Assembly (NCBI GenBank): GCA_014381825.1
Contig: JACNKX010000198.1
Span: 1 to 64,000, forward strand
From: Planctomycetota bacterium
GTDB lineage: Bacteria > Planctomycetota > Planctomycetia > Pirellulales > Pirellulaceae
DNA length: 64,000 bases
Direction: 5' to 3'
Shown: positions 5,241-30,100 of the stretch, piece after piece
Numbering within the stretch: the stretch's first letter is position 1
Layout: the number at the start of each line of letters is the position of its first letter
Translations under genes and position numbers: made by a program
The notes under the pieces: generated by a model
Seen by the model: only the letters and a program-made list of their open reading frames with translations
Databases searched by the model: none
What the model was told of the DNA's origin: nothing

Positions 5241-5957
5241 TCACAGCAGATCGCGAGCCAAATTGTAACCGACGGTGAAGATCGCGGCATCAACCAACAA
5301 GTGGCTGAGCCAAGGCCCGTAAAGCGACTCGCTTTTCTGATAGATCCACGCCCACACAGCGCCACCAATCGCTACGGCTGCGGAAAACAGATACGTCGCT
5401 GGTGATGTCCAACCAAAGTAAACGGCCAACACAATCACGTGGTGAGCCATGAAGCCGAGGCTCGAAATTGCGATTGCGGTCGGCAGACTGGCGAACTCCT
5501 TAAGTCGACGGAAGACGAACCAACGCCAGTAATACTCTTCCATGAGCGAATGGATAAACGCATAGAAGAGCGAGGCAGCAATGTACTTGGGGAGCGTGTT
5601 CAGTCCGATCCCGATGATTTTTTCGCGGATCGCCTCACCCGATTGATCGAAAAATCCGATCGGTTTAAGCCACAACAAGGCCACCGCCAGCATCGCCGCT
5701 GCGACGAGCAGACCAAATCCGAACCCTGCGCCAATCCCGCGCCATGTCGGGCACGGACAACTGACCTTCTCACGCATCACGAAGAATACCCAGACGGCTG
5801 GAAACGCGAACTGAATGACTTTTCCGATTGCAGCTGCGCCTCCCTGTAGCGACGATGGTTGCCCGGCGAGAACGACAAAGTAAGCAAGTGTGACGATGGT
5901 CGGAAAGATGATCGCGAACGTCGTTGCCGCTAAGTTCGCCCGAGAGGATACTGCCAT
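5241..5957 (-). CDS. CPBP-family intramembrane glutamic protease
   Basis: A 238-residue membrane protein with about six to eight hydrophobic segments. The CPBP (CAAX protease/bacteriocin-processing, 'Abi') motifs are present: EEYYWR at residues 140-145, with the paired glutamates and Arg; GFMAHH with His172-173 inside a hydrophobic helix; and LSHLLVDAAIF (His219, Asp223) near the C-terminus. Members cleave within or next to the membrane. It lies downstream of the giant secreted-protein gene on the same strand, separated by a 15-bp hairpin, so co-transcription is not certain. A role in handling that exported protein is possible but only inferred from position. The ATG at 5957 begins MAVSSRANLAATTFAII, a first membrane segment. 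Confidence 0.85.
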   Translation of the reverse strand: MAVSSRANLAATTFAIIFPTIVTLAYFVVLAGQPSSLQGGAAAIGKVIQFAFPAVWVFFVMREKVSCPCPTWRGIGAGFGFGLLVAAAMLAVALLWLKPIGFFDQSGEAIREKIIGIGLNTLPKYIAASLFYAFIHSLMEEYYWRWFVFRRLKEFASLPTAIAISSLGFMAHHVIVLAVYFGWTSPATYLFSAAVAIGGAVWAWIYQKSESLYGPWLSHLLVDAAIFTVGYNLARDLL

Positions 5958-6114: not shown

Positions 6115-9100
6115 CTACGAGGTCCAATCGTCGTCTTCGCCGAAGATTTCATCACCGACATCGGTTGCGTCATTCAGCGTGTCTTGGGCGAGAAGATCAT
6201 AGACATCGGCGTCGGCGAACTCGATTCGTTCATTGCCTGCCGTGGCGAGTGCTGTCTCGTAAGCAAGTCGATAGACGTCGATATCGACTCCCGTGGTTTC
6301 AACGAGACTGCTGAGTCGTGATCGCAGCTGTTGAGTCGACTCAGCCGTTTCTCCCTGGAGGATGTAGCTTGCCAATGCCTCGGCGTAGCCAGATCCTTGC
6401 TCGTTACTCGTTTGTTCCGACGTCGTCGCCAGAAGGCTAGATGCAACAATCGAGCGGGCACCAATCACGCCGCCTTCACCTTCACCTTGATTAGCTGGGT
6501 CGTTGAGGTGGTTAATGACCAACAATGCGTCGATTGGCGAAATGTCTCCATCGCAGTTCGTGTCGTAGAACGGTGGAGGTGTATTCGGCGGCAGCGGTGG
6601 ATTTGGCAGCGTTCGGGCGCCGACGAGATTAAGACTATTAATAACTAGCAACGCGTCCAATGGAGTAACGAACCCATCGTTGTTCACGTCGAGGTTATTA
6701 AACGGATTACACCAGGGGGAAGGTGGCCGTGGCGAGAGCGTGATCGTGACTGTCGCAACCGACGGGCCACCGTTACCGTCATCCACGATGTAAGTGAATG
6801 AATCTTGCGACGTATTGCTTCCATCGTGGCGATAGATAAACGTGCCGTCTGCATTCAACGTGAACGAACTGGCGTGTTGTGGCTGTGAATCGATGAAGAC
6901 GGACAGTGTATCGTTAGAATCGACATCGGTATCGTTCGCCAAGACGCCGTCATCATTGAACAAGGTTGGTGTGAGTGTGCCGTCGGCGTCTGTTGTCGTG
7001 AAAGTGCTTCCCTGGACGGCCGCATATCCATCATCGATCGCATTCGGTGCATCGTTTCGACCCTTGACGGTGATCGATGCATTTGCCCCGGCCGTGCCGC
7101 CATTGCCATCGCTGATTGTATAGCTGAATACTTCAACAACTTGGTCGCCAACACTCAAATCCTCGTACCGACCATTGGGCGAGAACGTGATACGGTTACT
7201 GGTGTCGAGCGTCGCCGTTCCACCACGCACGCCAACGGAGACAGGCGTGCCCGGCGAAATCGGATTACCGTTGATTTCGGTAACAGTCAGATTCTGCGGG
7301 TCAATGTCACTATCATTGCTGAGTACTTGAATGACGATCGATTGATCCTCGAAAGTCATTTGCGAGTCATCTTGAGCGATCGGATCATTGTTCGGACCGG
7401 TGATCGTCACGGTAACGACCGCCGTGTCTTGGCCACCGTTTCCGTCGCTGACGGTGTACAGGAACGTATCCGTTGCTGTTTCGCCGGCCATTAAGAAATT
7501 GAATTGGTTATTCGGACTATAAACAAAGACTCTGCTGTTGTCTGGTTGAATGACTAGGCCGACGTCACCGATCGTGCCAACCGTGTTGGGGGAACCGATG
7601 CTCAACACGTCTTTATCCGGGTCGCTATCATTGACGATAGCGTCGATGGTTACGCCCAGCAGATCATCTTTGGCAACTGTCGCCGAGTCCGCGCCAGCCG
7701 TTGGGGCATCGTTCACGCCTGTGACTGCAATTGTTACCGTGACATCTGTAGAAGATCCTCCGTTTCCATCCGACGCAGTATAGGTAAACGTGTCGTCTTG
7801 CATCGCACCGACGCCAAGCATCTGAAGCTCTGCAGAACCTGTCGGATCGTACGTTACGTCCCCTGTCGTGGTGACCGAAACAGTCGCACCCGATACAGAC
7901 GTCGCATCAAATCTGGATACTGACAACGAATCAAGATCCACGTCGGTGTCATTGCCCAAGACATTCAGTCCGGTAAAGGGCGTATCCTCGTCCGTTGCGC
8001 CCGAATCCGTAACACCCACTGGTACGTCGTTAACCGCGTTGACGATCACGATGAACGTGTCAGTAACAACGTTTTGGAAGCTGTCTTGAGCCTGGACGGT
8101 AATCGTCGCTTGGCCGTTTTGATCTGGTGCGACAGCTAGGCTGATCACAGGGCCGGTAAATGGATTTGGCGTAACATCCACCAAAGTCGGATTGTTGTTT
8201 GATGCCAGGCTGTACGTGAGCGTGTCACCGTTTGTGGCAACGTCTACATCAGCAAAGGCCGATGAAATGTCGATGGAAATAGTTGGGCCGTCTTCGTTAA
8301 ACGGAACGTCTGGCAACGGTGCCGCGACAAACGGATTGTCATTGACAGCCCCGACAACCACCGCGAACGTGTCCGTAACCGTCAAGCCGCCTTGGTCCCG
8401 TGCCTCGACTGTAATGTTCGCGGTCCCGTTTTGATCCGCAAGGAAGTTTAGCGTCAGCTCTGTGCCAGCGAGCGTTGGCGTCAAGAGCGACGGATTGTCG
8501 TTCGAGACAATTCGCAGTGTGAGGTGATCGGCATTTCCGTTGGTGATGTCCACGTCGCCGAAGATGCCGATCAAGTTGACTGGCGTTGCAGGATCATCTT
8601 CCAACGCTGGCACATCGTTAATGGGAGCGAGTACCGTCGGCGTGACATTCGTGATAACGCGGACCTGATAGTCTTCGACTTCGCCATCCGAAGCCAAGCC
8701 CGTCGGTTGAAGCCCTCCGTCGGTACTCAATCGGAATCGAGCTGAAGTAAAGCCAAGATTCGCGTCTGCTGGAGTTGCAATCGAAAGGGTGTTGAGGCCG
8801 GCGTTAACCGGTTGGCTGGCAAAGACCTGTTCGCCGTCGTCGACCCAGTCACCATCTTGGTTGAAGTCAACCCATGCGTCGAGCAAACCATCGTTCGATG
8901 CCGTGACCACGACTTGCGTGTCGACCGTTCGGATTAGGCCACCCTCGAAGACGACACCGTCTTCGTCGTCACCATCCAAACTGATTAAGCCATTGCCAAC
9001 GTGCGTCGCTGAGAGGGCGAGACTCTGCGACTCGATCGCGGCAACAATCGCGTTCGCAAGTTGATCGGGCGTGCTTGCGGGCGTAAAGGTCACGCCAGTT

Positions 9101-12100
9101 CGTCCCGAAGTGATTCCATTGCTCAGCGTTGGATTGTCAAATTCAAACGTTACCGCATTAGCACCGTCGCTAATGACGAACGAGTCGCCATCGGCCATAT
9201 TCGCGCCGCTCAGCGATTGAATGCCGCTTGGCAGCCGATCCAATAACTGCAAACCGCTTTGCGTGAGATTCAGAGCATGGCTTGACGGCCCATCAATGTG
9301 AATGCGTCCGTCACCCAGGCTTGTCGCGACAAAACCCGGAGCGAAGTTGCTGTTCGTGATTGCCGTGAGAACAGCCGTAGCGACATCGTCTGTCAAAAAC
9401 TGTGTCAACGTGATGGAACCGGATGTGTCTAGCTTTTTCGATGAATCCGTGCCATCAAGGGACAACATAACGCGTCCGTCACCGAGGTTTTGCGGCGACA
9501 AGCCGAGACCTGCACTCGCGATCACGTTAGCAACGACACCTGCGATGTCGGCCTGCGTGCTGAGATTCGCGAACGTGACGACGCTGTTTCCCGGAGTCGT
9601 GTTACCGTTCGAGTCAAACTCGAAGATCACATCGGGTGCTCCCAGGCCCAAGTTGATCGCAAACGCATCGCCGTCAGCAATTCCGCCCTGAGTCCCGCCG
9701 GCGGTCGGCACTTGGATCGTGTGTTTGTAAGTCAGATTGATCGGCGTATTTCCTATCGCAACATTGTTGTCAAAATCAAACTCGAAGTTGATAACTTTTG
9801 ATCCGTCAGTCACCGAGAACGTCTCACCGTCGGCAACACCGTCGGCTTCACCAAACGCGGCCAAGTTTGCTGCAGAGACGTCGATCAAATGCTCGTTGGT
9901 CGAGCGTGGATCAATGACGCCATTACCGAGATAGATGGGCGACAGCGGGGGATCGAGCGGAGCGTTGGCAATCGCCGAGATGATGCCAGCTGCCAATTCG
10001 TCCAGCGTTTGCGGACGAGTTCCGACGGCTAGCGAAGGCGTTAAGGTTGTGTCAACCGAATGAGACGAATTGCTTCCGTCTAGAATGACGATGCCGTTAC
10101 CCGGATGATCTGGCGTAAGGCCCAGCGAGGAAACTCCGGCGACCGCAGCCACAATTGCGTCGGCCACCGAGTCCTGACTGCCAAGGCCCGCGACGGTTAC
10201 TGGAGTATTTCCAATCGTAACCGAACTGTCGGAGTCGAACTCGAAGACTGCGTTAGCGCCGAACGAGCTGTTACGGATCGTGAAGGTCTCGCCATCTGCG
10301 ACACCGCCCGGAGCGCTGCCAGCCGTCGGTACGAGCAAAGTAAAGTTGTCCACGATGTTGATCGTCGGATTGCCGGGTACGGAGACACCGTTTGAATCGA
10401 ATTCAAACGTCACGACACGATTACCGTCACCAATCTGGAACGTTTGTCCGTCGGACAGCCCTGCCTGCGTCAAGCTCGGGGCAGCCGATAGATCCAACGT
10501 CGGTTTGGGACCGCGAAGCCGTAATGCACCGCCGCCCAGATCTTCCGGTGTTAGGCTCAACGACGAAGCGTTACGAATTGCGGTCGAGAGCCCCAGAGCG
10601 ATATCTTCCGGACTGCTGAATCTAGTAAACACGACTCGTACATTACCCGTAGTCGCGAACCCGTTGCTATCAAACTCGAATCGAATAGGTACGTTCGACC
10701 CCTTTTGAATTGTGAATGTGTCACCATCGGCAATGTCCGCGCCACCGTTAGGCGGCGATTCAATAACGAAGGGTGCCGAGTTCGACTGCGTCAACGTCGT
10801 ACCGGAGAAATCAAATGAATAGTTGATGTCGCCGAAATCAATTATGCCATTGCCTTCATCGGTCGGATTCAACGCCAGCTGAGAAACACTGGCAATTGTC
10901 GATCGGATCTGTGTGACAATATCTTGCTGCGTACTCGTCGAGGCGTAATTGATCAGGAAGTTGCCTGGAGCGACGTTGCCGTCGCTGTCGAGTTCAAACG
11001 TTGCCTGCACCGAACCGCTATTGATGGTGAACTGTTCACCTTCGGTGACAACTCGTCCACCGAACAGCGGCGCGACCAATCGCAAACCAGCAGTTGGTGT
11101 TTGAATCACAGATTCGATACCTGGGGCCTGCAACTCGTAGGCGGGAACTCCCAATGTGCGTAATGAAGCGTTCAGCGTATCGATACCGTGCGTCGCCTTG
11201 CCACCGATGTTGACGACTCCCCCACCCAGATTCGTCGGACTCAATCCCACAAGTTGCGTTCCCTGCGTCGGCGAAACGGACTGGATAGCCGTTACGATCG
11301 CGGATGCGACTTGGTCCAGCGTACTTCCTGTCGTAAACGGCACGGCGACGTTGTTGCCGGCGACGGTCGTGCCAGTTCCGATGTCGTCGAACTGGAATGT
11401 GACGGCCTGGTTAGTTGTGTTATCTGTAATCGTAAACGTATCGCTTTCCGTGACACCTGCGACACTGGTGAGAGAGGGTGCATCGGACGCATCTAATACT
11501 TGGCTTGAGGTAACTCCGAGTACGACCCTACCATTGCCTGAGTTCGTCGGTGAAAGGCTCAAGCCTTCATTGACGATGCTGGAAATAATTGCGTTTGCGA
11601 TGTCGTTTTGCGAACCAGGAGTCAGGCTGACCGCAACGTTTGTCGGCCGAGTGTTGCCGTCGCTGTCGAACTCAAACGTGATCGTGCGAGTCGCATCGCC
11701 AACGATCAAGGTGTCGCCATCGGCGACGCCACCAATTCCGCTACCGGTGACAGGCACTTGTAAGCCCGTTGGAATCTGTACGGCAAACGGAGCAGGTGAC
11801 GGTGTCAACGGCAGAAGATTGCTGAGTGTCAGATCAATAAAGGCATCGCCGTCGTCACCGGAGGCGACGGAGTTAGGTTGGCCGTCGGTTTCTGCATCAA
11901 CTCGAGTTCCAAGAATCAGACCGTTACTGATGACGTGAACGGCACCGTTGCTGCCTGCCAGCGTTTGGAACGACGGATCTCCGGCATCACCGTAATCGAG
12001 AGCGACGTCGCCGAGAATGATCGTGAATTGAGTCTCACCGGTCAGTTGGTTTGGCTTCAGGTCATTTGTCGCCAAGTCCTTGATCGCCGGCATAAACGCG

Positions 12101-15100
12101 ATGTTACCCGACGTTGTTGCAAGGAAGTTAGCCGTGGCGGTTACGTTGCGTGCTTCGTCGACGACAACGGTTGCGCCACCGCCAAGATTGGCGGTCACGT
12201 CGACTCGCGACAGCGGATCGTTGTTAATCGCGTTGTTCAACGCAACGGCAGCGTCGCTCGCAGAAAATTCAGCGGACGGCACGAACGGAATTGCAACGGC
12301 AGCGTTGTCGCCTGGTGTTCCAAGGATGGACAGATGAACCATCTGTTGCGAGTTGGCGAAACTGACTAAATGACTGGCCGTGCCGCCAATATCGATCGTA
12401 CCCAATCCGTTGTGCACCGAAGTCAATCCCAATCCCGCGGACAACAGCACTGGCACCATCGTATTGGCGATATCGCTCGCGTTGCTCGTGTCGCCGAACA
12501 CGATAATGATGTTGCCTGCTGTTTGGACGCCGTCGCGATCCAACTCGAACGTCACGGTATTGAGCGGGAAGCCGTTGTTGTCAACAAGTGAAATCTCGAA
12601 CGTTTCGCCATCGCGAATACCGCCAGATACACCGGTCTGATTTAGATTCGTCCCTACTGTATCCCATAAGTGCGACAAGCTGTTCGCGTCAGGTTCGCCA
12701 GCATCGAGCAGACCATTCCCAAGAGCCAGCATCTGCTGGAGCGGATCGAGACCGACATTCGAGCTGTTGACAACCGCGATGATGGTATTTCCGAGTTGGT
12801 CAGCGTTGTCATTTTCACTGAAGGCAATGCGAATTCGACCTGGAGTGACGATACCCGGTGCCTGGTCGCTGTCGAATTCAAACGTCGTCAGGGAAACGCC
12901 ATCGTCAATCGTAAAGAACTGACCATCCGCGATTCCCGTTTGTTGAACGCTCGGGCTATTCGAGGTATCGATCACATGGAACACCGTGTCGAGATCGAGA
13001 TCGCCGCCGCCAAGATTGATGGGCGTAATACCGATGTTCGATCCTGCGATGGCAACCGCCATCGAATTAGTGACTTGATTGCGATCACTGCCGGCGGCGA
13101 ATGGAATCCGCACGTTACCTGCCACAACCGACGAATCACTGTCGAACTCGAAGGTGGCACTATTCCCGGAACGATCTCGAATCGCAAATGTCTCGCCGTC
13201 CGCGATCGATGCTCCGCCACTCTGGGGAACGATCAAGTGCAATCCGCCATCAGGGACTTGAATTCGTAGCGATGCACTCTTCGTTTGCAGACCATACGCT
13301 TGGCTCACACCGGGAAGCCCTGATTGCGAGAGATTGCTCAGCGTCGTGCGAACGATGTGCTGAGGCGTGCCGCGAAGCTGGACTAGACCGTCGCCGAGAT
13401 GGTTGGCCTGCAGGGACCCTGCAGCGTCAATGGCACCATCCGAAATCGCTTGATTCACGGCGGTGGTCAGAATATCAGAGATCTCCTCGTGCGTTTGACT
13501 GGTCTGAAACTGGATGGGCCGCGTATTCGGGCGAGTTAGGCCGTCGGTGTCGAATTCGAACCGTACGGTGTTAACTCCGTCACCAATCGAAAACGTGTCT
13601 CCATCGGCAACTCCGCCCGCAACGCCGACTGAAGTCAACGAAGTACGACCGCCACCGGTGGTGGGCAACGTAACCTGATGGACGTTACGTGTCCCAAAGT
13701 GAATTTGTCCTAGTCCCAAGTTGACCGGTGCAAGTCCCAGATCGGCATCCGCCAAGGCGTTAACGATCGAGATAGCAATCTCGTCTTGCGTCGAAACGCT
13801 GGTAAAGGAAATCGGGACGTTCGCTCCGTTGAACGCACCGTCTTTATCGAACTCGAAAGTTACAGTTCGCAGGCCAAGTAGGGCATCATTGAAATCGATA
13901 GTGAATGTTCCACCGTCACGAATGCCACCCAAGCGACCACCCTCTTCGGGCACTTGAACCGTAAACGTTTGCGGCACGTGCAGAATGTGACCGCTATCAA
14001 ATTCGTAGCGATCGATGCGAGGTTGGAAATCACCGATCAAGATTGCATCACCGTCGTTGATCTCGTCTCCTGCCGGAGTCGTGATCACGAAGCGATCCGT
14101 GTTGTTCAGGGTAATCGTATAGAGGCTGTCGGGAGTCCAAATGCCGGAGAGTGGGGTCAACTTGATGATGTCGCTCGTCGCGTTATAGCTGAACGAGTAA
14201 TCGACACCGTCTTGCAAGACAACGCCGTCCCGTTTGACGACGACAGCATTCGTCACGACTGTGTTGTCATCGACACCCAGTCCATCTGTCGGATCAGCAG
14301 GTTCGACACCATCGACCAAACGAATCTCGAAGCTTGAACCGACAATGCCTTGCCCAAGCTGAACGATCGACACTTCGTTGCTGCGAAGATCAACGCCATC
14401 GGCATCGTTGTCCGCGGGTTGAGTGATGTTGGCGGTAGGACCAGCGAAGTCAGCGCGATCAATGGCACCACGATCCGTAAAGACATCTTCGCCAAAGCCG
14501 GAAGCAGTTTCGACGTTCGGATCGTCGACACGCTTCTGCCCTGTCACGTCATTGCCCGGAGCCAAGATCGGCGATGGTGAGATCCCAAGCGGGTCGCGAA
14601 CCCGTACGAGATCTGCTCGATCAAGCAATGATCCGACGGAGTTGTCGATCGCATTCGAGCAAGGTTGCAGATAGAAATTCTCGTTCACAGCATCGACGAA
14701 CAGAACATTCGGGTCGTGCAGATCCGTATTGCAATTTGGACCGTTCGGCAACGCTGTCGCATCGGGATTACTCAAGTTGATCGCAAAGTCTTCGGAGGCA
14801 ACACCGCTGATCGTCGTCGAGGCATTTCCTTGATAGATCTGACCGCCAACAACCGTCAGACTCTCCGAGAGACCGTCTGGAATAACGCTGATCCCGGTGT
14901 CAAAGTTCGCGACGATGTTGTTCAAGATCGTCGGTGCGGCAAAGTCGTCGATGAGAATTCCGATATCCGCAGATTGCGTTCGAGGAACTAGAGTTCCGCT
15001 CACGCCGAAGAGCGTGTTGTTCACGATTCGACCGAAGGGCACAGACCCTACCTGCTCGGAGGTCGGTCGAGTGTTGCCACTGAAGTGAATGGCTCCCTGT

Positions 15101-18100
15101 TGTCCGCCAAAGATTACATTGTTCTCAATCACCACTCCCGGCACGATGCCGGCCGTATTCAGTTCAAGCAGGTTCCGTCCTGGCAAGACTGGAACGGGCG
15201 CTGCGTTGGCGGCGCTGGCAACGGTCACGGTGGACGTACTGGAGGACGTACTGGTTCCAGTCGTGCTCGTGATGGTCGTTGATGTCGTGGTTGTGCCGTT
15301 CGAGTTGACGGTCCTTGTTACATCAGTCGTGGTCGTCGTATTGCCAACCGTTGTCGTTGTGGTCGTCGTTGTGCCACGAGCGGGGGCATCGACGGTGATG
15401 CCAAATTGTTCGGAGTTGGCAATCCGATTCGCTTCGATCAGAATCTGCCCTTGCTCGCGGAACAAGTTGCTGTCGCCTGGATCGTCAAAGACGACAAAGT
15501 CTGCCGCACTGACAGCACCAAAAGTCAGCTCAAGTTGGTAGAAGCCAGTTCCGCCGTCGATACCGCTTCCTTCGATATTTGGATCGTAGTCGCGGTTGTT
15601 GAAACCACTGACTCCAACAAAGTAAGTTCCGGATGCCGGGGCTGTGAAATCAAGATATGAGTCAGTAAATACGCGTCGAGATGTTTCCCCCGGAGCGATG
15701 CGGTCATCGCTAAGAGCCAACGGATTGCCGAAGATGTCGAACACTCGCAGCATCGAATCCAAACTCGAACCGATTTCTTCCGCATCAATATCGATGCGAA
15801 TCGTTTCGCCGCGGAACAATTGAATTCGGAATAGGTCAACGTCCAAGCCCCGTTCGATTGGATGACGTTGGTTGTCGCCGATGGCTCCTGACGCTAGGAA
15901 ACTCGGCGAGTTACGACCGACGATGCCAGTCTCGGTGGCTTCCGCCAAGAAGTCATTCGTTTCGTCGACATCCGTGCCATGCACGGTCAAGTGAGCTGGA
16001 CCGTATACGTTAACTCGGTTCGTTGTTGTGACTGTTGGAGTGCCCGATCCAATCAAAGTACCATCGCCCAGACCCGCTGAGAGATCAGGCAGGACCGCTT
16101 GGACGGTCGTCGAGTTGATTGCGTCACGAATCGTTCGCGCTAAGTCGTTATTCGTACCTGCGGGCGTGAACGGCACTGGGTGTCGTCCCGTCAGAATTCC
16201 GTCCCCAATCGTTGTGTCGTCGTATTCAAACGTGACGCTATCAATCCCGTTACTGAGTACAAACGTTTGGCCGTCATAGATGTTTGCACCAGGCTGGGCA
16301 ATAATCGTCAGGCCTTGCGACAAACGATCGTTGGTATCAATGCTGCGTACCAATCCGGCTCGCGTTGAACCAGCACTCGTCACACCGTAGTCCGTCGATT
16401 TACGAACTTCGACTTGATAAGGGCCTGTCAGAATCTGATTGCCAGACAAATCAGGGTTGGCGACGAAGCCTGCGTTCGTGGACGCACCAGTCGCCATTTC
16501 GCCACGTTCGGCGAAACCAATGATAATGTCGTCGATGTAGATGCCTTCGTGGATATTGTCGAATCCACGCGCGGCAGTACCTGGACTGTTCACATTCGGA
16601 AGGGGACGATGATCTGAAACATTTGCGAACTGATCGCCTTGCAGAGCGCCATCAAATCCCAACGGTCCCCTGTCGCCGATCGTATGCCCGATAATACGGA
16701 CCAGATCCTCCTCCTGCTTCACGACGTTTCCGAGCACGCGTCGATTCAGCGCTGACACACCGAATTGCGAGAAGCCTTGGATGAAAGTTACGTCTGATGG
16801 CAGGCCGGTCTGATGCGTGAACGTCACGACATTCTCAGTGCGACCAGCGACCGTGCGGACGGCAGCATCGATCTCAAGACTGATCGACAGACTTGGCGCC
16901 GTATTGTTCACGGCGCTTGCAACGGCTACCGCGACGTCAGCCCCCTGGAATTGAGACGACGGTGAGAACACAATCGGCACGCGGGGCGATTGACTGGCAA
17001 CAAGTCCGTCTTGCGTCAAGTTCGCCGTGCCGGATGTATCAAGCACGTGGTTCTCATTACCGCCAAAGTCGATGGCACCAAGTTTGTCGCCAAAGGTTCG
17101 AGGAAACAGATTTCCAACGTTATTGCGAAGTGTCGTGACGATTGACTGCGTGACTTCGGTTGTCGACTGATCGGTTGTGAATGGAACGACAAAATTGCCT
17201 ACGGTCGTCATCGCATCGTTATCGAATTCGAAGACAATCGGAGCGCCAGTCACCGTCACGGTAAAGGTTTCGCCGTCGGCAATCGGGCCACCCTGCCCGG
17301 ACTGAGATAGGCCGACGGGCCCACTCTGACCTGGTGCGGGTGTTTGCGAGAACTCAGTATTCAACTGATGTTGCGCTGTACCGCCCAAATGAATCTTTCC
17401 GTCGCCCAGGTATCTCGGTGTCAAACCAACGCCAGCATCGGCGATTGCGTTGATAATGGCACCCGCCAACTGATCGGTGGTACCCAGATTCTGAGACGTA
17501 GGTGATGCATTCAAGCTAATCGAAACGTTCGAGGGTGAGTTGGCACTATCAAGATCGAACTCAAAGATGACTTGTGGATTGACACCATCTCGGATAACGA
17601 AACTTGTCAGATTACTATCGACCAACGCTCCGGCTTTGCCAGTTTGTGTCACATGACCACGAATGCCGACATTCGTGTCATTGGTAACTAGCGCGGTATT
17701 CGCAAAGCCGCCAATTTCGATACCTGATGGTCCGTCGATGAGCGTCGGGAGAAGCGTGTTCAAGGTCGCAGCAATTTGGGTAATGATTCGGTTCGCAACT
17801 TGCGTAGCATCATCGCTGGCAACGAACGCGATCCGAGTATTTGCGGCGTTGAAGCTGCCGTCGGAATCCAACTCGAAGGTGGTTGGAGGGACGAAGTCGA
17901 GTGGATCGGCATCAACCGTGAATGTCTCGCCGTCTGCGACACCCCCGAGTCCGGCACCCGCCGCAGGAATTTGAAATGCGAAGGGTCCTGTTCGAATCAG
18001 ACTGGTGGCAACTGGTAGCGTTAGCGAAGCTCCGGTCCCGCCTAAATCGATATTGCCTTCGCCACCGAACTTCGTTGGCGAAAGAGCAAGTTGCGGTCGG

Positions 18101-21100
18101 GTGGCAATTGCGTCCAAAATAGATAACGCAACTCGATCGGCGCTGTCCGTATCGGTGAAGAACACCGGCACGTGTTGGATACCGTTTGCGTCTACTCCAA
18201 CATTGCCTTCGCTATCGAACTCGAAAACCAACCCGGGGATAATATCGGTTACATCATCGTCCAGGAGGAAAGTGTCTCCGTCAACAATGCCGCCAGTCAT
18301 TCCACCGGCATCCGGCACGTGCAGTCGGAGTGCTTCAGGCAGCGTGAGCGTCAAAGTTTCTGGAACGGTAATCGAGACAGCTGGGTGAACGCCCGTTTCC
18401 GAGATCGGCTGAGTAACGTTGTTGCCTTCGCTCAACTCGATGCGTGGGCCGGGGAGGCCTGCAATTCGGAGTCGGGTGCCGTTAGCCAAGGCAGCAGTAC
18501 GTTGAAGATCGATTCCGAGATCCGTAACGAGATCAACAGGGAACGGATCGAAACCAGGCGTTGGTCGGTTCAGTGCCGTGAGCATCGCACTAGCAACTTG
18601 CGCCTGGGTGAAGTTCGGGGTGATGGCTATACGGCGATGCGTGTTGCCATTGGCGTCGGTCCCAACGCCAAATCCTTTGTCGAACTCAAACGTGACGCTG
18701 TTGCCACCGTCGGTAATCGTAAATGTTGCACCATCACGAATCCCACCGAGTTCAAGATTCCCGCCTGCGGCAGGGATCTCGAGGGTGAACGGTGTCGATG
18801 AAGTTCGCGTCAGCCCGCTTCCAGGGGTGACGGAAAGAATCTGACCGAAGCGACCGCCAAGTTGGACCATTCCGCCGTCGAGGGCGAGTGGTACCAAGCC
18901 AAGATTTGCGCTATTAGGATTCGCAGCCACGGCGTTCGAGATGGCCCGCGCCAACGTACTCGCCGAAGCATTATCTGGAATAGCAATTGCTGTGTTGCCA
19001 GCAGCTACCGTAGGGAACCCGAACGGATCGTTCAGATGATCCTTATCGAACTCGAATACTAACGGCAGTTGGCTCAGATCGTTCGGATCCTCGATTGTGA
19101 ACGTGACACCATCTTGGATACCGCCGAACGTTTCATTGCTGCCCGCTGGTGGAACCTGGAGGAGAAATCCACTGTCGAATTCAAATGTTACGGGAGCGTT
19201 GACATTATCTTCCAACACGAAAGTATCGCCGTCGAAAATATCCAGGCCGAAGCTTGCGACAATCTGTGGATCAAAGAACAATTGTTCTAAGACACCGTCG
19301 ATGGCCGTCGCGACTTGCGTGCGAGACATTCCCGAATGAATTATCGCAGGAACATTGTCAATCGTGACACCAGCGCTGCCTTCCACGAGTAATTGTGCGA
19401 CCGCGCCGGCACTTATCTGAACATCGACTGCTCCTTCAAGATTGATTCGGTTCGCATCCAAGTTTGCGTGATTGTTTAAGTGCGGCGTAACGCTGGCACC
19501 GAGTGTACTCAATCGAATCGCCTGGGCTATCTGTTCCGCGACGTCTGCCGGGCTTTGCAGCGGATCAACGAAGATCGGAATGTTGCCTTGTGGGATCAGT
19601 GGCGAGTTACCCGGATTGAAAGTGTTGCCACCAAGCTGAACACCGTTTCCGATCAGCGTATCAATCGTCGCATCGATCGTGAGCGTGGGATGCAAATTGA
19701 TCGCGGCGGCAACTCGAATTGCAACTTCGTCCGCCGTATCGGTTGGCAAGAAGCCGATCAGCGAATTGCCTGGGGCGACACCAGGCGTTCCCGTTTGGGT
19801 TGCATTGACAGTGCCGGACATGTCGATGGTGTGCGACGCACCGATGGTCCCACCGACATGGACGATGCCTCCGCCAACGGTGACCGGAGTCAGGCCAGTC
19901 AGCAAAGTTGCTGTGACAGCTTGTTCGATCGCAAGGACAATTGCGTCGGCAATTTGGTCGGCGTCGTTGCCAGCTGTGATCGTGACCGCGCGATTGCTGC
20001 CAACGACGGCAGTATCGAAGTCAAACTCAAACGTAACCAAATCGTTCGTCTGATTGTCACGGATCGTGAATGTCTCGCCGTCCGTGATCGCTGTAGCGCC
20101 AGCTGCAGGTACCGTCAATATGAAGGGAAGAACATTCGACTGACTCAGGCTACTCGTCCCCGCACTGACTGTATGGCTGAGCGTTCCCTGCAACTGGAAC
20201 AAACCGCCACCCAGGTTGAGCGGCAGAATGTCTGGTGTTGGGAATTGGCTTTGAATCGCGTTCAAGACACGGTTCGCGACGTCGTCAGCAGATTTTGGCG
20301 TTGTCGTCTGAGTCAGGAACACAGATCCACCCGTGCTCAGAACGTGCGCCTCAGTCGTATCTCGCAAAACAACCGCACCATTGCCGTCGTTCGTTGGGAC
20401 GACATTAAGGTTGGCCTGCTGAACGACACTTGCAATCAGATTGGCGACATCATCTTGCGACAGGTTTGCCGCTTGCTGCGCCGCGCTGGGTGTTAACGAG
20501 ACATCGACTAAGTGATTCGGAGTGATGCCTAACAACCGCACCAGCCCATTGCCACCATCGACCGGTGTCAATCCGAGGGACGCACCGCCGATCGCCGCGA
20601 TAACACGTTGAGTCAGCACGCTTTGCGTTGTGAAGTTATCGAAAACAATTGGGATATTGCCAGCCGTTGTGTTTCCCGTGCTATCAAACTCGAAAATGAC
20701 AGGCGGAATGAGGTCATTGAAATCTGGGTCAATCGAGAATGTATCTCCGTCGACAACGCCACCGAATCCGCCGCCTGCTGCGGGAAGAAGAATCTCGATA
20801 GGATTCTGAATATTGATCGCGACCGTGCCGGGATTCGTAACGCCGTCGCGGTCGAATTCGAACAAGACGAGACTGTTACCGTCGTCGAGCGAGAACTGGT
20901 CGCCATCGATCAGCCCCGCCGCACCGCTTGCCGGAACGAGAATAGTTAGGTCGTCGGTAATATTAATCTGAGTGGCTAACGGGTCGAACAAGATGCCATC
21001 ATTGTCGAATTCAAAGATCACATCGCCGCTACCGTTACCATTATTTAGAACAAACGTCTCGCCATCGGAGATCAGGTTCGACGCTGGCAATTGGACGAGG

Positions 21101-24100
21101 AATCCGCTGTCGAACTCGAACTGGACGGACGCTGCTCCCTGGCCGACCGTAAACGTGTCGCCCTCGGCCAGCGAAGCTCCGTCAGGCGTGATGATACTTT
21201 GCGGGAAGTCATTGTTGTCGACAAACTCAAAGACCGCAGTTTGGCCATTGGCATCGGTAATAGTGAGCGTTTCACGAGCAGGGATCGCCGAACCGGAAGG
21301 TGTAACGACCGTCAGTCCGGAATCAAACTCGATCGTCCGATTGTCAATCACAAACGTCTCGCCGTCGTCGATGTAAACGCCATCGACGGCTCGCAATTCG
21401 GTCCCCGTCGTAAAGACCGAGCCAACGTTCATTTCGCCAGCAGTCGTAAAATCGAAACGTAACCGCAAGTTCTCGCGGCCCGCATACTCGTCTAACGGAA
21501 TGCGAACTTGGCGCCAGTCGGCCGTAGACCGGAAGTCAAACGTCGGTTGCACTTCAAATTGGCTGATGTCGTTCAGCTCGTCGGTAATACCGCCACGGCC
21601 ATCGTCGAACTCATCGTTCGTACTGAGCAACTGCCAATTTCCATTATCATCGGCGACGAATACTCGAAACGAGTCTCGCACGAGCGGATCGTTGGGATTA
21701 AACGGTTCGAAGTCTTTGTTTTCGGTGGCCGCATAGTAGTTGAAATACAGGACAGGCCTGTCGGCGGCGGTGTATCCCGTCAAGTCGAATTCGTTACTCA
21801 CCAAACTGCCATAGGCACCACCAGGGAAATCATATCCCCGCGGAGTACCGTTGCCGGTCCCTTGGCCGAAGGCGAAGCTATTCCGCCCGTCTTCGACGGT
21901 ATTCGGCAGGCTACCCGAAGTACGGCTGCGATCGAAAGCCGGATTAACGCCGTGTCCGGGTGCCAGCTGTTGCTCGCTGACGAAAATTGGATCGCGGTTT
22001 GCATTTGCGATCCCAAGTCGCACGTCCACTTCAGTCGGAGTCTGGAAGCTTGGCAGCGAATCGGTGACATGGAACAGGTTGCTGTCGAGCGTCGAGAACT
22101 CCAGGCCGCTGACGTTCGTCAGGCCAGTCGACACGAACGTCTCGCCATCGAGGAAGATCGCTTGGAGTTCACCGCCAGTCGTTCCCTCAAGGCCAGGCGT
22201 CGGAACGTTGAACGCATAGAGTCGCCCTTGGACGTCGATGGCGAACAGCATATTCGAGAACGCACCATTCTCAACATTAGGAGGACCAGCCGTAAGCCCA
22301 GCAAATTGAATTCCAACTAAATCATCGGCAGAATTGCGAACATACGTGGTAGTCGCACCTGTGGTAAGACTGCGGTCGAAGCGAGGGCTCGCTGATGTCG
22401 GATCGTTGACAACGTAAAAGCCGCCGTTGTCGCTCACTACATAAAGCGTATCGTTGACCTCGGCGATGCCCGTGACTCGACCGCCAGGTCCTTCTCCCGC
22501 GGTTACAAACGGAGCATCCACAATAGCGACACCTTGGCTGAGTGTCACAAACTCTTCGAGCGTCGTGGCGTTGATCGTTGGGCCTAAGACCGAATTGATG
22601 GCGTTCGCGATATTCCTGGGTACTTCGCCCGACACGATCAGTGCTTGCACGCCGACCAGGATTGTGTCTTCCGCCGTATCACTTGCCAACGCTTCGATAC
22701 GTTCACTTCCGGGTGCGACTCCAGGAGCACTTCCAAGTTCCAGCCACAATTGTTGGCCGTTGACTTGGATACCACTGACGTCGATCATTTGCGCTCCGTG
22801 GAAGTTGATACGTGCAAAAGCACCACCCGCTGTGTAATCGGGATGGGCCGAGACTGCGGCCGTGATGTCACGAGCGATCTGATCAGCCGTCAAGTCATTG
22901 TTCAAGGCATCAAACGTAAACTCTTGTGTTTGAATTAACGCATCCACGACCAATCTAGTAAGCGGGGCCGTTCCCGGTGTGTAAATATTCTGCGCGACGG
23001 ATGCGGGAGCAAGTCCGTTAACAACGACCTTGTCTCCAACAACTTCTGCGGTCGCTGTAAGGTCATGGAGGCTCACAATGACCGATTCGCTCGCGGCATT
23101 GCCGAAGCCTCGCTGAGCGCGAACGGATCTTGGATCGTTCGCGAGATTCGAGCGATTTTGAATCGCAAGTAGAAGTTCATTCGCGTTGGTCGTCGCAGCA
23201 CTTGGTGGAATGACGACCGTTACGATGTTCGCCCCTTGCACTACTCGGGCTGAACCGCCCCGTGTGAAAGGAACCAGAATGCAAGTTGATCCGGCTGGAT
23301 AGTTCGTATTCGTGCAGTCGGGATCTGGGGTGCCCGCGAAACCGGGTGGTGTCGGATTAATCGAGATAGTGCCAGCGGGTGCACTGGCAGCGGTTTGATC
23401 ATCCCATTCGAAGACATAAAGAACACCGCTGTCGTCAACAACGTTAAAGAAACCATCTCGAATACCTGAGCCATCCGGAGTCGGGATGACCTGGGGAGCG
23501 GCACTCGCGGCGTTGATCGCGTTGGCGATTTCCTGCGCTATTGCATCAGCACTGAAAGTTGACGAAGGAAGGAAGGGAACGGCGACATGCGGGCGAGTTA
23601 CCGTCGGAGGTTCAACAACTCCGGGCGATCCGATGACAATGAGACTCGGAGCATTCGTCGTTGAAAGTACCGGAACGGGAGCGGCCAATCTCGGATCATG
23701 AACGGCGACCTTTCCATCTTCAAGGAACAGCGACGTGAATCCAAGGAAGGCCCCGTTAATTTGCGCGGCGACATTGGCAGCGATCTGATCGGTGGTTAGC
23801 GCTCGAGCGGCGTTGATGATCGAACCTGCACCGGAAGTGTTGCCGTCTGTATCGAACTCGAAGTTGCGAGTGAACGTCCCGTTCGAGACGCTGAAAATTT
23901 CGCCATCACCGATCGGTTGTTGCTGACCAACCTGAGTCAGGCTGATGCTTTGTGACGTATCCAAAGATTCGATGCCGGTGACACCGAGGTGTACGAAACC
24001 GTTGCCTTGGTTGCTGGGACTCAACGTCGGAATCGCCGTCGAGATCGCTGCCACAATTTGGTCCGCCACCTGATTCTGACTGCTTCGGCCACCAACGTTG

Positions 24101-27100
24101 ATCGCAATATTCCCAGGAGCAACTCCGTTGCTAAGGTCGGTACTCTCAATTTCGAACTGTAAAGGTGGATTAGCGTCACTAGTATTGGCGTCGATCGTGA
24201 AAATCTCGCCATCGCTCAGCACGCGTCCGCCACCGAACGGCACTTCGATTCCAAAGGTCTGGGGCACTTGCAACACATAACCGCTCTCGAACTCGAAAGT
24301 AACCGGCACACCTTGTGTACTGCGAGTGTCGATTTGGAACGTCATCCCATCGGCAAAGTTACTTCCGTCACCTGCTTGCAGGACCGGTGCCTCGCCGTTG
24401 TCTCCCTCGACTCGAATACCCGGCGATGCTTGAGGAACGGAACCATCAAATTGATCCGCATTTCCAAAGCTAACTGTCGCACCGACTTGTCCGAACTGGC
24501 CATTGAGATCAGCGGTCGGATCAACGAGCGTGAGACGTCCCGAATTCGGACTGACAAAGGCCTGAACGTCTAGGGCCGAAGCATTAATCGCCGTTGCGAG
24601 TGCGGTCACAATCGCGTCAGGTTGAAACGCCGCAGTGAATGGAACTGCAACGTTCGGTGCCGTGACCGCGTCTCCATCGAGAAGCTCGAAATTGATGCTG
24701 AGACCAAGGGCGTCGCGAACCTGAACGATCGTCCGACTTCGGATAAAGCTGCCATCGGACACAACCGCGATGACCGGTCCCGTATTCAGCTGAAACAAAG
24801 TGTCATCCAAGAAGAAAAAGTTTCCGTCTCGAATGGTGACGCCGTCTTGGCCGTCGACGAGCTGTTGAACTTCAAATCCGAAATCAAACTCAAACGTTGT
24901 CGACGCACCCCGATCAAGCACCGAAAGCGACGTGCCGTCGACAATGTTGAAGACGGTATCTAGTTCCTGCGTATTTGGATCGCGGACCTGGATTGTTGCG
25001 TCTTCGGTCACGATGCGAGGACTGGTCAACAATTCACCGCGCTCGCGGATGTTGGTTCCCGCTTGATCCCAAAATCGGTCTAAGAACGGCGGAGGATCGA
25101 TGTCTTGGCGGTCGAAGAGGATTGGATTCCCTATCGTCGTTGACACGGGCTGTCCAAAATTCGGAGCGGTTTGATCAGCAATGAACTGGTAGAGAATATT
25201 GTCAAAACGTGTCGGGCCGTTTGGCAGCGGATTGGTGTTAAAGCCTCGATCACCAACCGCGAATCCGCCAAAGCCGATATTCTCCGCAAACGCTATTGCA
25301 TTGAACTGAATGCCATCACCGATACGCGCGGGAATGGGGTGCGTTATTATCGAGTTCGGCGGGGACGCCGTGCTCGCCGGATCTATCTCGTAGGTGATGA
25401 TCCCATCGTCAGCAATCACGGTCGCGACGCCCGTCGCGGGATCGATCTCCAGAAAGAATCCTGAATTCGCATCGAACGGACTATTCGGATCGGTTTCGTT
25501 GAGCCCAACCGAATAAGCGTAGATCAATCCGTTCGGATGAATCGCGAAGTCCCGGATTTCGAAGTCGAGGTCATCGCCGGCGAATGTCTCTTGAGTTCCA
25601 GTGAACGGATCGACGATGGTTAGGTCGTACGAGTCGTTCCCGAACGTTTCAAACGGACTCCGTAGCGTACTCACGAACAGACTGACGTCTCCCAAGTGGA
25701 ACTCGACCTTACTTTGATTGTCCAGCAGAACGGGAATCTGCGGATTGTCCGCCGTACCGATGAAGTTCGGAATTCCGTTGCCCGTAATATGGTCCTCGGC
25801 GATGCGCCGAGTTGAATCAACGGGTTCCAGTCGCAGGTCGGGATTAATCGGACTTCGCCGAAAGAACTGTTCCAGTTGAGCTGGCATCGTGGCGTCGCTC
25901 GACACGGCAAGGAAATACGTCCCAGGAGGCATTTCGACGGAACCAATGAATGGGTCCGATCCGCCAACCGTTCCTCGAGATAGGTCATCGATTTGCGAAG
26001 TCCCTGGTTTGCCGGGTCGGTCGTCCCCGATGTTGCCTTCACGACTTGTAAGAATCAGTCGTCCATTTACATCAAAGACTGACATGACGGTGTTGGCCCG
26101 TGCCAAACCGTCGGCATAGTCAATGTCGAAGACGACTTCCAAGGTGGAAGGACTGAGGCGGACGTTTTGGAAGTTGATGTTGAATTGGAAGAAATCAACG
26201 TCAGTCCTGGCTGCTAAATCACCCGCGATCCCCATCGCTGCGCGGTCGATTGCGACTAAATTTCCAAGAACCTGAGCGTTCGCTGTCGAGTCATTGTTCG
26301 CTCCCGAAACTTCCACCGATTCGCCAAGCAAAGGCGAGTGAATCGGCTGCCCAATGATTTCGATTCCGGTTTCGGCGAACGAAATATTCGAGTGCCGAAC
26401 CGTCGAGCCAGGTGTCTCGTCAACTTCGCGAAGCCGAATTTGAAGCTGATACGCACCCGACGTCAAGCCACCGTCCAACCTGTCGAGATCGCCGCTGCTA
26501 CTGCGAACTCGAATGTGATAGGTGTTGGACGATCCCAACGCTCCGGGCAGGATAACTCGCATACCGGGATCGCGAGGGTTCGTCGAGTAGAAGTCTTCAC
26601 CCTCGAAGGGTGGTTGCTTTTGCATTAAACGAGCGATGCCGCCAAGTAACGTCGACTCCGTCAATTCAGCATCGGATAGATTCGCGGACGTCCGTCGTTC
26701 GGGAGCGAGATCGTTATTCTCGTTTAACGATTCGAAGTAGGAATTGTCAGACCTCGCGATTACCGTGCCATCGGCATCAATCAGTTCGAGAACCGAATCC
26801 AAAGCATGGGTGGTGCGATCCACATCGAACCAGACCTCGGTTCCGGCATCACCGGTGAAGCTGTAAATGTCATAGTCTTGGCGGTCGTTCAAGAACCCTT
26901 GAACCTCGAATCCAAGGCGTCGGTTCTCGTCGCCACCCTTTTCGAATGGAGCTAGTTGCCCAAGGAACTGAGCGCTGGCGGTCGTCGCATTCGTTCCCGG
27001 GGAGATGACTTCTCGTGGCTCCAGTTCTGTTGTCGCCTGGACATTGCGATCGTGGCTGTACTGTTCCAGCACGATGCCTTGCCACTCGCCAGGACGACCT

Positions 27101-30100
27101 GCGTTCCCCAGCGAAACATCACCCGAAAGCGTGAGTACGGCGAGGAACATAGAGTTGTTGGTGCCTGTGTTCGCCAAGTCGAGGCGGACTTGCGTCGCGC
27201 CGGAAGGGATGAACGGGCTCAAATCATAGAGTTCATCATCGGGCGATTGATTGGACGTTGGCAAAATAGGATTTGCAGTTGTATCACCCACGCCACCGAC
27301 GGTGATGAAAGTGCCTGGCGTCGGAGGCGTCAGAAGCGCCGTGTCGTCAGCGCCGCCAGCAGAACTCGTCAGTCGAGTGCCGTTGACGTCGATCTGACCT
27401 GTGCCGGGAAGGACTGGATCACTGAACGACATGCCGACTGCCAATTCGGCAACGAAGTTCGGATCGTTCGGGTTGGCAGGTTGAGCAAAGTTCAGTGTGT
27501 TGGTCAACGGAGCACCCCCCGTCAATCCTCCATCGAGAACCATGACCGTTCGTTGAGGCAGCGTCGGATCTGAATAGATGATTGTCAGACTGACACCCTC
27601 GACATTGTTCGGCAAGCCCGTCGAAGTCTCGTCGACCGTAAACGTGAAGTTTGGTCCCGGTCCGAGCAACACCGATTGAGCCACGATATTCGTGACATCG
27701 ATTCTCCCAGTCTCAAAGTTGACGTTGTTCGAATCGTCAACATTCGACAAATACGAGATCGGCAACAACTGCCCATTGAATCGAATGGATTGCGGGCGGA
27801 ATGCGGGCGGAGCGGGGAATGTCGTCGTCGTACCGTTTCGCGTGGCCACATGCAACAACGCCAACTCAACGGTCGCACCCACTGGAACTAGCCCATCGAG
27901 GATGCCGGTACCATTTGTTCCAACTGCATCTGTCGAAACGCCCAACTGGCCCGCAAGGGTCGCTGCAATGCCCGAATCAGGCTGAAGTAACTGTAAGCTA
28001 TTGCCGACGTCTTGCGTCTGAACTTGAACATCGCCGCGCGGATCGAAACCAGCGCCGATCGTATCATCATTCAGCGACGTCAGAACAACTGGGGACTTTG
28101 GTTGCCCGATCACTTGAATCGCACCGCCAATGCGGTCCTCGATCTCCAGCGGACGACCGATCGCTCGAAAGCCAGCCTGATCGGGAACTGACGGATCATT
28201 GCCATTGCGATCCTCGCTGAGCAATTTCACAACAAGGCTCGATGTCGGATTACTTTCCAATCGCAAGCCACCAAAAGTGTGAAGATCAGGGACATAGATT
28301 GTGTCTTGCACGACATGCACAATATCCGTGTCATCCCAGACGCTCTGGGTCGTCAAAGTTTGGCCACGAACCAACATTCCATTGATCGAGTTGTCCGCGA
28401 GACGGTTGTTAAAGACAAGCGGTCCTTGGTTGTCGCGGAAGCCCTCTAGGCGATCGATCAATCCTGTCGTTCGTCCCGAGTCGCGATTCAAATCGGAATT
28501 CAACGCGTTCACGTTGATGTTGATCGCAGCGGCATCGTTGTCGCGGATGATGTTGTCGATGATGACCGGCTGGGCACCACGAATGAAGATGGTTCCGGCC
28601 TCGTTGAAACCACGTCCGAAACGCCCTGGATTCGTCGCGGCTCCTTGGCCGCCAAGGCCTTCGGCATTGTTTTCAAACACCGAGTTCGCGACACGTGCCT
28701 CGGCTTGGTGAATCTCCAACACGTTAAATGCATTGAACGTTCCTTCGACACGCGTCACGCCGCCACCGAACGAAAACAATGCATGATCGATGTTGGCGCT
28801 GGAGTACTCGCCCAGCATTACGCCGCCCCAGTCACCTGGAGTTGCTTCATTGTTCGAGCCGACAGAACTCGCGCCGTCGTTAGCCGTATCGAAAGTCCCA
28901 CCCGCACCGTAACGATCATCAAGCAGGCTCGTGAATTTGATCTCAAGCCCTTCTTGTCCTTCGGCGATGAACTGCGCTCCAATCCCAGTTTCGATCCGAG
29001 CTCCATCGAGCTTGACGACGATCGAAGGGTCGATCGCCAACCGAGCATCAAAGCGGGGCCGCAATGAAGCACCGGTGTCCTCGAGAATCGCGCCCTGTGT
29101 CGTCCCGTCATCCAAAAAGGTCGTCGTGGTGGCATCGAGCCGAGCGACCAATTCGTAGTCCCCAGCAGGTCGCAGTCGGTACAGATTGCGAGCAATATCC
29201 ATGCCGGTTGCAATCGGCAACTGTGACAATGCAACTGACTGCTCAATTGCTTGCGGAGCACCAGCGAGCGTCACGCCTGCCGTCCGCTCGGATGCTGGGC
29301 CTTCGTTCCCGAGCGTGTCGATGAACGTCACGCGATAGTCGTAAGTTCCCGTCGCCAGGATTCCCCCGACCACCGGTACCAGGGCAACTGGTGATACCTG
29401 CGGGGCACTGGCTCGTGGATCACTCAACGATCCGCCGCGAGTCGTACCATCATCGACGTACGTCGTCGATGTGCCGTTCAACTGAGTTACGAGTTCGTAA
29501 CTTCCGTCGGGACGGCTACGGTATAAGTTTCGAGCCACAAAGTCGCCTGCGACTTCGGGCAATTGTGCAAGGCGAATCGATCGCGTTCCAACTCCGGCAG
29601 TGACGTCTGGTGTCGCGTCCGATACCGGTCCTTCGTTGCCCTGAATGTCAAGGAATGTCAGGCGATAGTTGTACGTGTCAGCGAGCAACGTGCCGCCGGC
29701 GATAGGCGTCTGCGTGATCAGACCAATCGTTGGCGCTTGAGGTTCCAGCAACAATCCGCCCGGTGTGCCTTGAATCTGCAAGTTTTCGCCGAACACATGC
29801 ACGATGTCGGTATCATCAAAGCGACCAGAAACGGTCATCGGTCGGATCGTGTTACCGGCAGGTGTCTGAATGCGGACGAACAAGCCATTGACGCTGTTTG
29901 CGGTCACCGCATTCTTGTAGACATCGGGACCAACTCGATCGTAGTCGGACGTGAACGAGAAGTTTTGATGACGCGGAGCATGAAAGTTCGTCTCTTCAAA
30001 GCTGTTCGGACTCGCCGAGATCGCAGCGTCGGCACTGCGCGAGATCGAGTTGAACGCAACCGTCGGTCGCGTATCGATGATGTGGATCGGCGTGACGACT

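Follow-up and report, generated by a model that had tools for sequence, protein, structure and literature searches.

The stretch of DNA analysed here (positions 1 to 64,000 of contig JACNKX010000198.1, Planctomycetota bacterium, assembly GCA_014381825.1; referred to as the window) encodes a giant open reading frame (ORF) of 9,562 amino acids (aa), which is read in one continuous frame and holds all copies of a recurring unit, the FEFD module. The original prediction had described this module as an unnamed repeated domain, and overlooked that modules are recursively nested in one another and inserted into other host domains. By Pfam and NCBIfam scanning, GEVED, tandem-95/cadherin-like repeats and a C-terminal dockerin were found in the giant ORF. 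Dockerin_1 (49 bits, cut-off 22.9) and PF20009 (GEVED; 59.3 bits, cut-off 24.4) scored above cut-off, and the planctomycete extracellular motif PF07595 at the N-terminus scored below it (17.9 versus 25.5 bits). Residues are numbered from the ATG of the 9,562-aa ORF; stop-to-stop profile scans number 20 higher.

A module profile was seeded from the window and then refined by adding relatives, to 121 modules in total. Its consensus is aDGetFtitdgtttvtFEFdsdgtvapgnvrIsftpsdtadqianaivaainsaglgLtptnlgngrvhlggtanhsldtsnssltqtgspg, and among the 121 modules D2 was conserved in 105, G3 in 113, F17 in 113 and E18 in 116. Matches of >5 bits with profile start ≤15 and end ≥50 were counted as complete or largely complete modules. 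Lone N-halves consist of the DGxTF...FEFDSDG hairpin and lone C-halves of the segment from the DQIA helix to LTQxG, each with or without strand 3. At >5 bits, our own profile gave 27 modules counted as complete or largely so in the window protein, together with 8 lone N-halves and 7 lone C-halves. For controls, 35 ORFs (190,013 aa) were scanned as such, reversed and block-shuffled. The N-half profile (>6 bits) gave 400, 1 and 0 matches, respectively, the C-half profile 327, 0 and 2, and the whole-module profile (>4 bits) 520, 5 and 1. Since matches were nearly absent from reversed and shuffled sequence, chance is excluded as the source of the modules. The same layout, with small differences, was found in G002:C84 (L088), G018:C251 (L090) and G001:C727 (L089; part of the gene only), and is therefore not an artefact of one bin.

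Profile, controls and the three other assemblies thus agree that the predicted recurring module is real. Its estimate of about 40 copies holds for cores, as 35 FEFD cores and a few weaker N-halves (by eye or 2–4 bits) bring the total near 40, but not for modules, as 8 of these 35 belong to N-halves rather than whole modules. The predicted arrays of 15, 15 and 7 come near our hand count of about 14 (aa 4479-6010), 15 (aa 6893-8622) and 6 (aa 3288-4100). Three isolated copies do exist, but fall outside the interval in which they had been placed (they lie at 30721-33711); one isolated copy (15970-16278) lies inside it.

Interrupted modules and nesting order

Because halves come with or without strand 3, the module has two break points, namely site A, which separates strands 2 and 3, and site B, which separates strand 3 from the helix. 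Type A was assigned to N-halves ending at profile position ≤27 and C-halves starting at 22–30, type B to N-halves ending at ≥34 and C-halves starting at ≥35. Half ends between these limits were left untyped; in the first set of ORFs (see below), C-half starts from 19 were allowed. By profile, the deep nest of the window reads A A B B, module F, B B, module F', A A, with four N-halves and four C-halves. A further, weak outermost pair (N0/C0) is sub-threshold and was read beside paralogs; with it, the nest would be about five levels deep. A type-A pair also seems to enclose the tandem array at aa 3484-3784. The same appears to hold for the tandem arrays at aa 5190-6005 and 6913-7568, with ends that are weak, recognised by eye or matched in L090 only.

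Halves were paired either last-in-first-out (LIFO) or first-in-first-out (FIFO). In a first set of 35 ORFs, many of them orthologous, types agreed in 55 of 61 LIFO pairs (Fisher 7e-11) versus 26 of 62 FIFO pairs (p 0.31). After removal of G001, G002 and G018, the corresponding counts were 24/29 (p 0.0013) and 16/30 (p 1). The second set comprised 80 ORFs from the window, its own genome and 80 named loci, with the orthologs L088-L090 removed. Here, 45 of 53 typed LIFO pairs agreed (27 AA, 18 BB; Fisher p 3e-7, odds ratio 40), 13 pairs with an untyped end being excluded from the type count, versus 30 of 54 typed FIFO pairs (p 0.78). Without the window, agreement was 39/47 (p 2e-5) under LIFO and 28/48 (p 0.55) under FIFO; when L091, L092 and L115 were omitted as well, it was 30/37 (p 6e-4) and 26/38 (p 0.23). 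Across the 80 ORFs, 66 of 120 lone C-halves were paired with a preceding lone N-half, versus 45.3 (sd 3.8) after permutation of half labels within proteins (2,000 rounds, maximum 59). Pair-inside-pair nests were found in 9 of the 80 ORFs. Equal numbers of N- and C-halves by profile were obtained for the nests of the window (4/4), L091 (4/4), L135 (3/3), G001:C864 (4/4) and G016:C21 (3/3).

All three orthologs retain the deep nest and both type-B nested units of array G, one C-half being read as a module in L090. The weak C-half at aa 3730 was found in the window only and is absent by profile from the three orthologs. Lone halves are under purifying selection similar to that on whole modules: the ratio of non-synonymous to synonymous substitution (dN/dS) for lone N-halves, lone C-halves and whole modules was 0.10, 0.09 and 0.10 versus L088, and 0.04, 0.10 and 0.09 versus L089. 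Synonymous sites were saturated versus L090.

Host domains and distribution

Occupancy of host sites was judged by the distance between anchors, and contents were read for part of the filled sites. Some contigs are listed twice in the host tables, and L132 and L137 are alike. The site J anchors LRLRFDFTTAGEMNVG and NIHEGIYIDDIIIGFAERGE were 36-49 aa apart in 8 of 52 rows, two of these being other giant ORFs of the window's own genome. The remaining rows gave 118-519, 681-966 and 1,424-1,656 aa (window 1,640), with L094 as a false anchor. At the GEVED-linked site, anchors were 21-32 aa apart in 12 of 23 rows (window 980); filled sites held 122 aa in L135 (one module) and 238 aa in L145 (two modules). 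At the Ig-like site, distances of 3-14 aa were found in 16 of 63 rows (window 674), and since some left anchors lie inside an array, the larger distances there are too short. Judged by anchor distance, each of the three hosts (J, GEVED-linked, Ig-like) is present in relatives with empty and with filled sites. The host of array P is possibly a beta-propeller, in which two paralog rows gave 291-297 aa versus 982 aa (two rows only). The host domain of the Pirellulales-type giant proteins is also encoded in L113, L126 and L132; these loci bear the title Candidatus Kuenenia stuttgartiensis and may be mislabelled or mixed bins.

The module profile matched 36 of 60 genomes (own genome and relatives) and 23 of 294 genomes sampled across the phylum, own included. 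In the distant family f43, one or two matches per genome were obtained, most of which lie in ORFs roughly 1,800-1,850 aa long; the scanned example has kelch repeats. Five more giant module ORFs (6,272, 8,591, 11,105, 10,674 and 8,985 aa) are located on contig C183 of the own genome (L073-L080), the last four in succession along some 119 kb of a single strand. On contig C78 (L001) of the same genome, RTX-type matches (PF00353) fall in an open frame of 18,780 aa. In one nest (L091:8897-9721, L092:2-802), the N-half and the inner module are separated by an Asp-rich stretch that repeats DxDxDGxxD-like motifs and has the look of a calcium-binding segment. A FlgE-like flagellar hook protein from another planctomycete family (L171:1500-4382) carries one FEFD module and possibly links the flagellar and giant-protein versions of the module.

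The features of the giant ORF are listed in Table 1. A Thr/Ser-rich low-complexity linker (aa 6475-6528, window 15220-15381) lies in the middle of the protein. The giant gene is flanked downstream by an Rce1-like gene (CAAX protease family, window 5241-5957) and upstream, on the opposite strand, by an ApbE-family gene (window 35327-36325).

Table 1. Features of the giant ORF, with positions in the window.
Feature	Position	Strand	Basis or content
Giant ORF, 9,562 aa, with all FEFD modules	6115..34803	-	continuous single frame
Isolated module, aa 365-456	33436..33711	-	profile
Isolated module, aa 762-859	32227..32520	-	profile
Isolated module, C-terminally truncated, aa 1279-1361	30721..30969	-	profile
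Array P, aa 3288-4100	22504..24942	-	modules at aa 3357, 3530, 3632; lone N-half 3484; lone C-half 3730; weaker halves
Host domain J, left part (WRQVRIPLDEYAGRENLRLRFDFTTAGEMNVG)	21394..21786	-	uninterrupted in some relatives and two other own-genome giant ORFs
Deep nest, aa 4471-5186	19246..21393	-	N0 N1 N2 (A), N3 N4 (B), F, C4 C3 (B), F', C2 C1 C0 (A)
N4, type-B N-half that includes strand 3	20800..20910	-	profile
F, innermost uninterrupted module of deep nest	20479..20754	-	profile
C4, type-B C-half closing N4	20296..20478	-	profile; alignment end points fit an N4+C4 domain
Rest of array J, aa 5187-6010	16774..19245	-	type-A N-half, six tandem modules, weak type-A C-half (3.3 bits)
Host domain J, right part (NIHEGIYIDDIIIGFAERGE)	16474..16701	-	comparison with relatives
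Isolated module, aa 6176-6278	15970..16278	-	profile
Ig-like host domain I, left part (GIWTPDSLYTITLNN)	14128..14346	-	comparison with relatives
Array I, aa 6893-7570	12094..14127	-	type-A N-half by eye (profile: L090 only), five modules, weak type-A C-half (5.0 bits)
Ig-like host domain I, right part (IKDLATNDLKPNQLTGETQFTIIL)	11989..12093	-	comparison with relatives
Array G, aa 7680-8622, inside GEVED-linked host	8938..11766	-	four modules; nested units B1 and B2 (type B); one module
Nested unit B1, aa 8108-8322 (N- and C-half around a whole module)	9838..10482	-	AlphaFold2
Nested unit B2, aa 8315-8522	9238..9861	-	profile
GEVED host, right part (DDEDGV...GEVEDY)	8659..8937	-	PF20009

Fold and predicted structure of the nests

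For structure prediction, nested unit B1 (215 aa) was modelled with AlphaFold2 from an alignment of 23 nested units of the window and related loci. The model had a mean predicted local distance difference test (pLDDT) score of 90.4 and a predicted template modelling (pTM) score of 0.83. Its outer halves contribute strands 14-18, 23-29 and 40-42 and, beyond the insert, a helix (160-172) and three more strands (183-186, 189-191 and 199-201). The inner module consists of strands 66-71, 76-83 and 93-96, helix 103-115 and strands 125-128, 131-134 and 141-144. Inner and outer module thus share the element order b-b-b-helix-b-b-b, and the model supports the small beta/alpha domain expected by the original prediction, with one fold for both.

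The deep nest (716 aa) was modelled from a 7-row alignment, from which L115, L130 and L135 had been removed because half-modules were misplaced in earlier alignments. pLDDT was mostly 78-91 at residues 100 to 380. Many solved domains aligned to the inner module by VIA-align, e.g. 8kee_A 92-185 on model residues 195-310 (Z 10.0). One level further out, 9cc7_J 85-178 aligned on 146-365 (Z 9.5, 2.0 Å, 76 residues). At the same level, Z values below 8, which may reflect a common arrangement only, were obtained with 7ey7_s 151-250 on 148-366 (Z 7.2, 3.0 Å, 88 residues), 5fhy_A (FliD) 104-227 on 145-366 (Z 5.5, 3.1 Å, 91 residues) and 9b42_S 92-207 on 147-366 (Z 4.4). From these alignments, we read N4 and C4 as a single domain with the fold of the inner module, closed around F. 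Closure of split halves into the fold of the inner module is accordingly a prediction, with good support for one level.

Among solved structures, the best fold match was phage tail-sheath domain I (9cba; Z 10.7, 2.2 Å, 90 residues over the inner module, 44-156), and 8kee_A aligned with the nested unit at Z 10.3 (4.6 Å, 155 residues over 19-211). Viral models in BFVD gave a baseplate-J-like match (E 5.7e-11) and a tail-sheath match (E 5.0e-4). FliD reached Z 5.2-7.1 (6iwy: Z 7.1, 2.6 Å, 92 residues) and flagellin up to 7.6 (9atl), within the same range below 8. The fold assignment is based on VIA-align and BFVD, Foldseek of the model against the PDB having returned nothing at E≤0.001. As modelled, the module has the same fold as phage tail-sheath domain I. 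By sequence, the phrog_165 profile matched 2 of 25 modules (best E 0.013), two PDB searches gave nothing convincing (no match in one, best E 0.4 in the other), and tblastn of array G against 50,697 phage records gave no match.

The module had been left unnamed by the original prediction and stays so: a known Pfam domain over the same boundaries was looked for, and no Pfam or NCBIfam model reached its cut-off over the modules in whole-ORF scans. PF07196 (Flagellin_IN) came nearest, matching 1 of 25 modules at E≤1 with 21.7 bits versus a cut-off of 22.7. Matches to NCBIfam models per module were weak (E-values only). ACP_syn_III_C, DUF5585 and pyruvoyl-dependent arginine decarboxylase were low-scoring per module (E-values only) and were read as chance.

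Interpretation and known systems

We consider it probable, with good confidence, that the FEFD module is an insertable domain which is recursively nested in itself and inserted in host domains, with nests closing LIFO. As read from sequence and models, the interrupted domains close in the order that recursive insertion entails, with many halves unpaired. The b-b-b-helix-b-b-b module would have spread in frame through giant planctomycete proteins, entering tandem positions, loops of unrelated hosts and, recursively, its own sites A and B. The early N-half and the late C-half of an interrupted module would fold together around whatever intervenes, so that the nest closes LIFO. Since both chain ends of a nest meet at the host, the nest would form a side arm that adds no length to the main chain, with an uninterrupted module at the tip of each arm. 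Such a protein may be a branched, spiky surface or adhesion protein, and its topology suggests that the inner dolls would be protected when the main chain is pulled. By analogy, a decoration role may be likened to that of sheath domain I and the flagellin and FliD head domains on phage tails and flagella. More tentatively, FEFD could be a self-inserting mobile domain, whose repeated entry into unrelated secreted domains and its own copies would let side arms grow doll by doll; we regard this as possible and give it somewhat less than even weight.

Several points weigh against nesting as proposed. The idea was derived from the window itself, type limits were fixed after profile ends had been viewed, and the ORFs in the pairing statistics are not independent. 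Single-level pairs are identical under LIFO and FIFO, which narrows the contrast between the two, and types disagree in 8 of the 53 typed LIFO pairs of the second set. In that set, pairing left 54 of the 120 lone C-halves and 32 of the 98 lone N-halves without a partner; a motif of the outermost N-half (N0-like) accounts for 10 of 45 unpaired C-halves, with 3.7 expected. By profile, nests are unequal in L130 (3 N, 4 C), L115 (4/5), L151 (3/2) and an own-genome ORF (4/3). An extra outermost N-half added by eye balances L130, and the same addition unbalances L091 (5 N, 4 C). The deep-nest model is moderate (pLDDT 74.4, pTM 0.52; outermost levels 33-64), and the reading of N4+C4 is based on first and last aligned residues rather than contacts. 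In G034:C49 (L130:14182-19788), the GEVED-linked site is filled by 371 aa that gave no match to the module profile; as the loop takes another insert there, the site is not specific to the FEFD module. Export and surface location of the giant protein, like the side arms and adhesion, are steps that we infer.

The unbalanced nests and the weak outer levels of the deep-nest model would also suit an interdigitated stack rather than clean dolls, in which N-hairpins and C-halves multiplied separately and combine by domain swapping or in another order. There is precedent, since recursively inserted HABAS domains of RNA polymerase are domain-swapped in some cases (excerpted text of PMC11515920). Unit B1 is predicted with high confidence, however, N4+C4 fits one domain by its alignment end points (2.0 Å), and types agree in LIFO order; we therefore consider such a stack unlikely. 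Still less likely is an ordinary tandem array in which some copies decayed to N- or C-fragments, the bracket order being coincidental. Many modules do stand in tandem, and the partnerless C-halves and nests unbalanced by profile would be expected from decay. Against this, types agree under LIFO and not under FIFO, halves are about as constrained as whole modules, three orthologs have kept the deep nest and both B units, and the nested unit is predicted confidently. The Asp-rich FEFDSDG and DG motifs at both ends of the first hairpin and the frequent calcium binding of giant secreted proteins might suggest an adhesin repeat that binds calcium, of the RTX or the cadherin/Ig type. This is very improbable, as all 29 PF00353 (RTX) matches of the own genome (E≤0.001) lie on contigs other than C68, that of the window, and cadherin and Ig models match elsewhere in the ORF, no RTX, cadherin or Ig repeat model reaching its cut-off over the modules. 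Calcium binding by the FEFD fold itself, outside these types, is possible.

For the insertable and nested module, the available material makes several open questions testable, namely the way in which a domain enters loops, the folding of nested chains and the possibility of branched proteins. Multi-level nests are present in several assemblies, and site J offers intermediates from empty to about 1,650 aa. FEFD is a main building block of planctomycete giant proteins and is unnamed in the family libraries searched.

Giant genes are frequent in planctomycetes, and giant genes at large are said to encode mostly surface proteins or polyketide synthases/non-ribosomal peptide synthetases (PMC5177795). 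No such module or nesting is named in the excerpted text of that source. Our literature search, in which most subscription journals were uncovered, returned no paper on the FEFD module or on nested domains in the giant proteins of planctomycetes; as an argument for novelty, this is weak.

Few proteins with recursive self-insertion have been described; a notable case is SI3 of the cyanobacterial RNA polymerase beta' subunit, in which, according to excerpts of PMC13114784 and PMC11515920, a small domain (HABAS) is inserted recursively into its own copies over six levels. The principle is the same, but SI3 is built from another domain in an intracellular enzyme, whereas FEFD occurs in several giant proteins per genome and in three host domains. 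The phage sheath protein T4 gp18, a member of the group whose domain I provides the best fold match, is itself nested (domain I, 98-188; II, 88-97 and 189-345; III, 24-87 and 346-510; excerpted text of PMC3004832). Its nested domains are described there as different folds, and it forms a sheath polymer rather than a giant secreted protein. FliD is the most instructive precedent, because its Head 1 (two strands at 80-101, and 231-273) is interrupted by Head 2 (104-230) as a loop insertion (excerpted text of PMC5072837). This Head 1/Head 2 layout of FliD/HAP2 corresponds to one type-A nest. The fold matches of FliD and flagellin (D2/D3) are weak. Differences from FEFD are the two levels, the flagellar protein and the Flagellin_IN profile, which stays below cut-off on the module. 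Fold and recursive insertion are thus already known, and the family, the scale and the hosts appear to be new.

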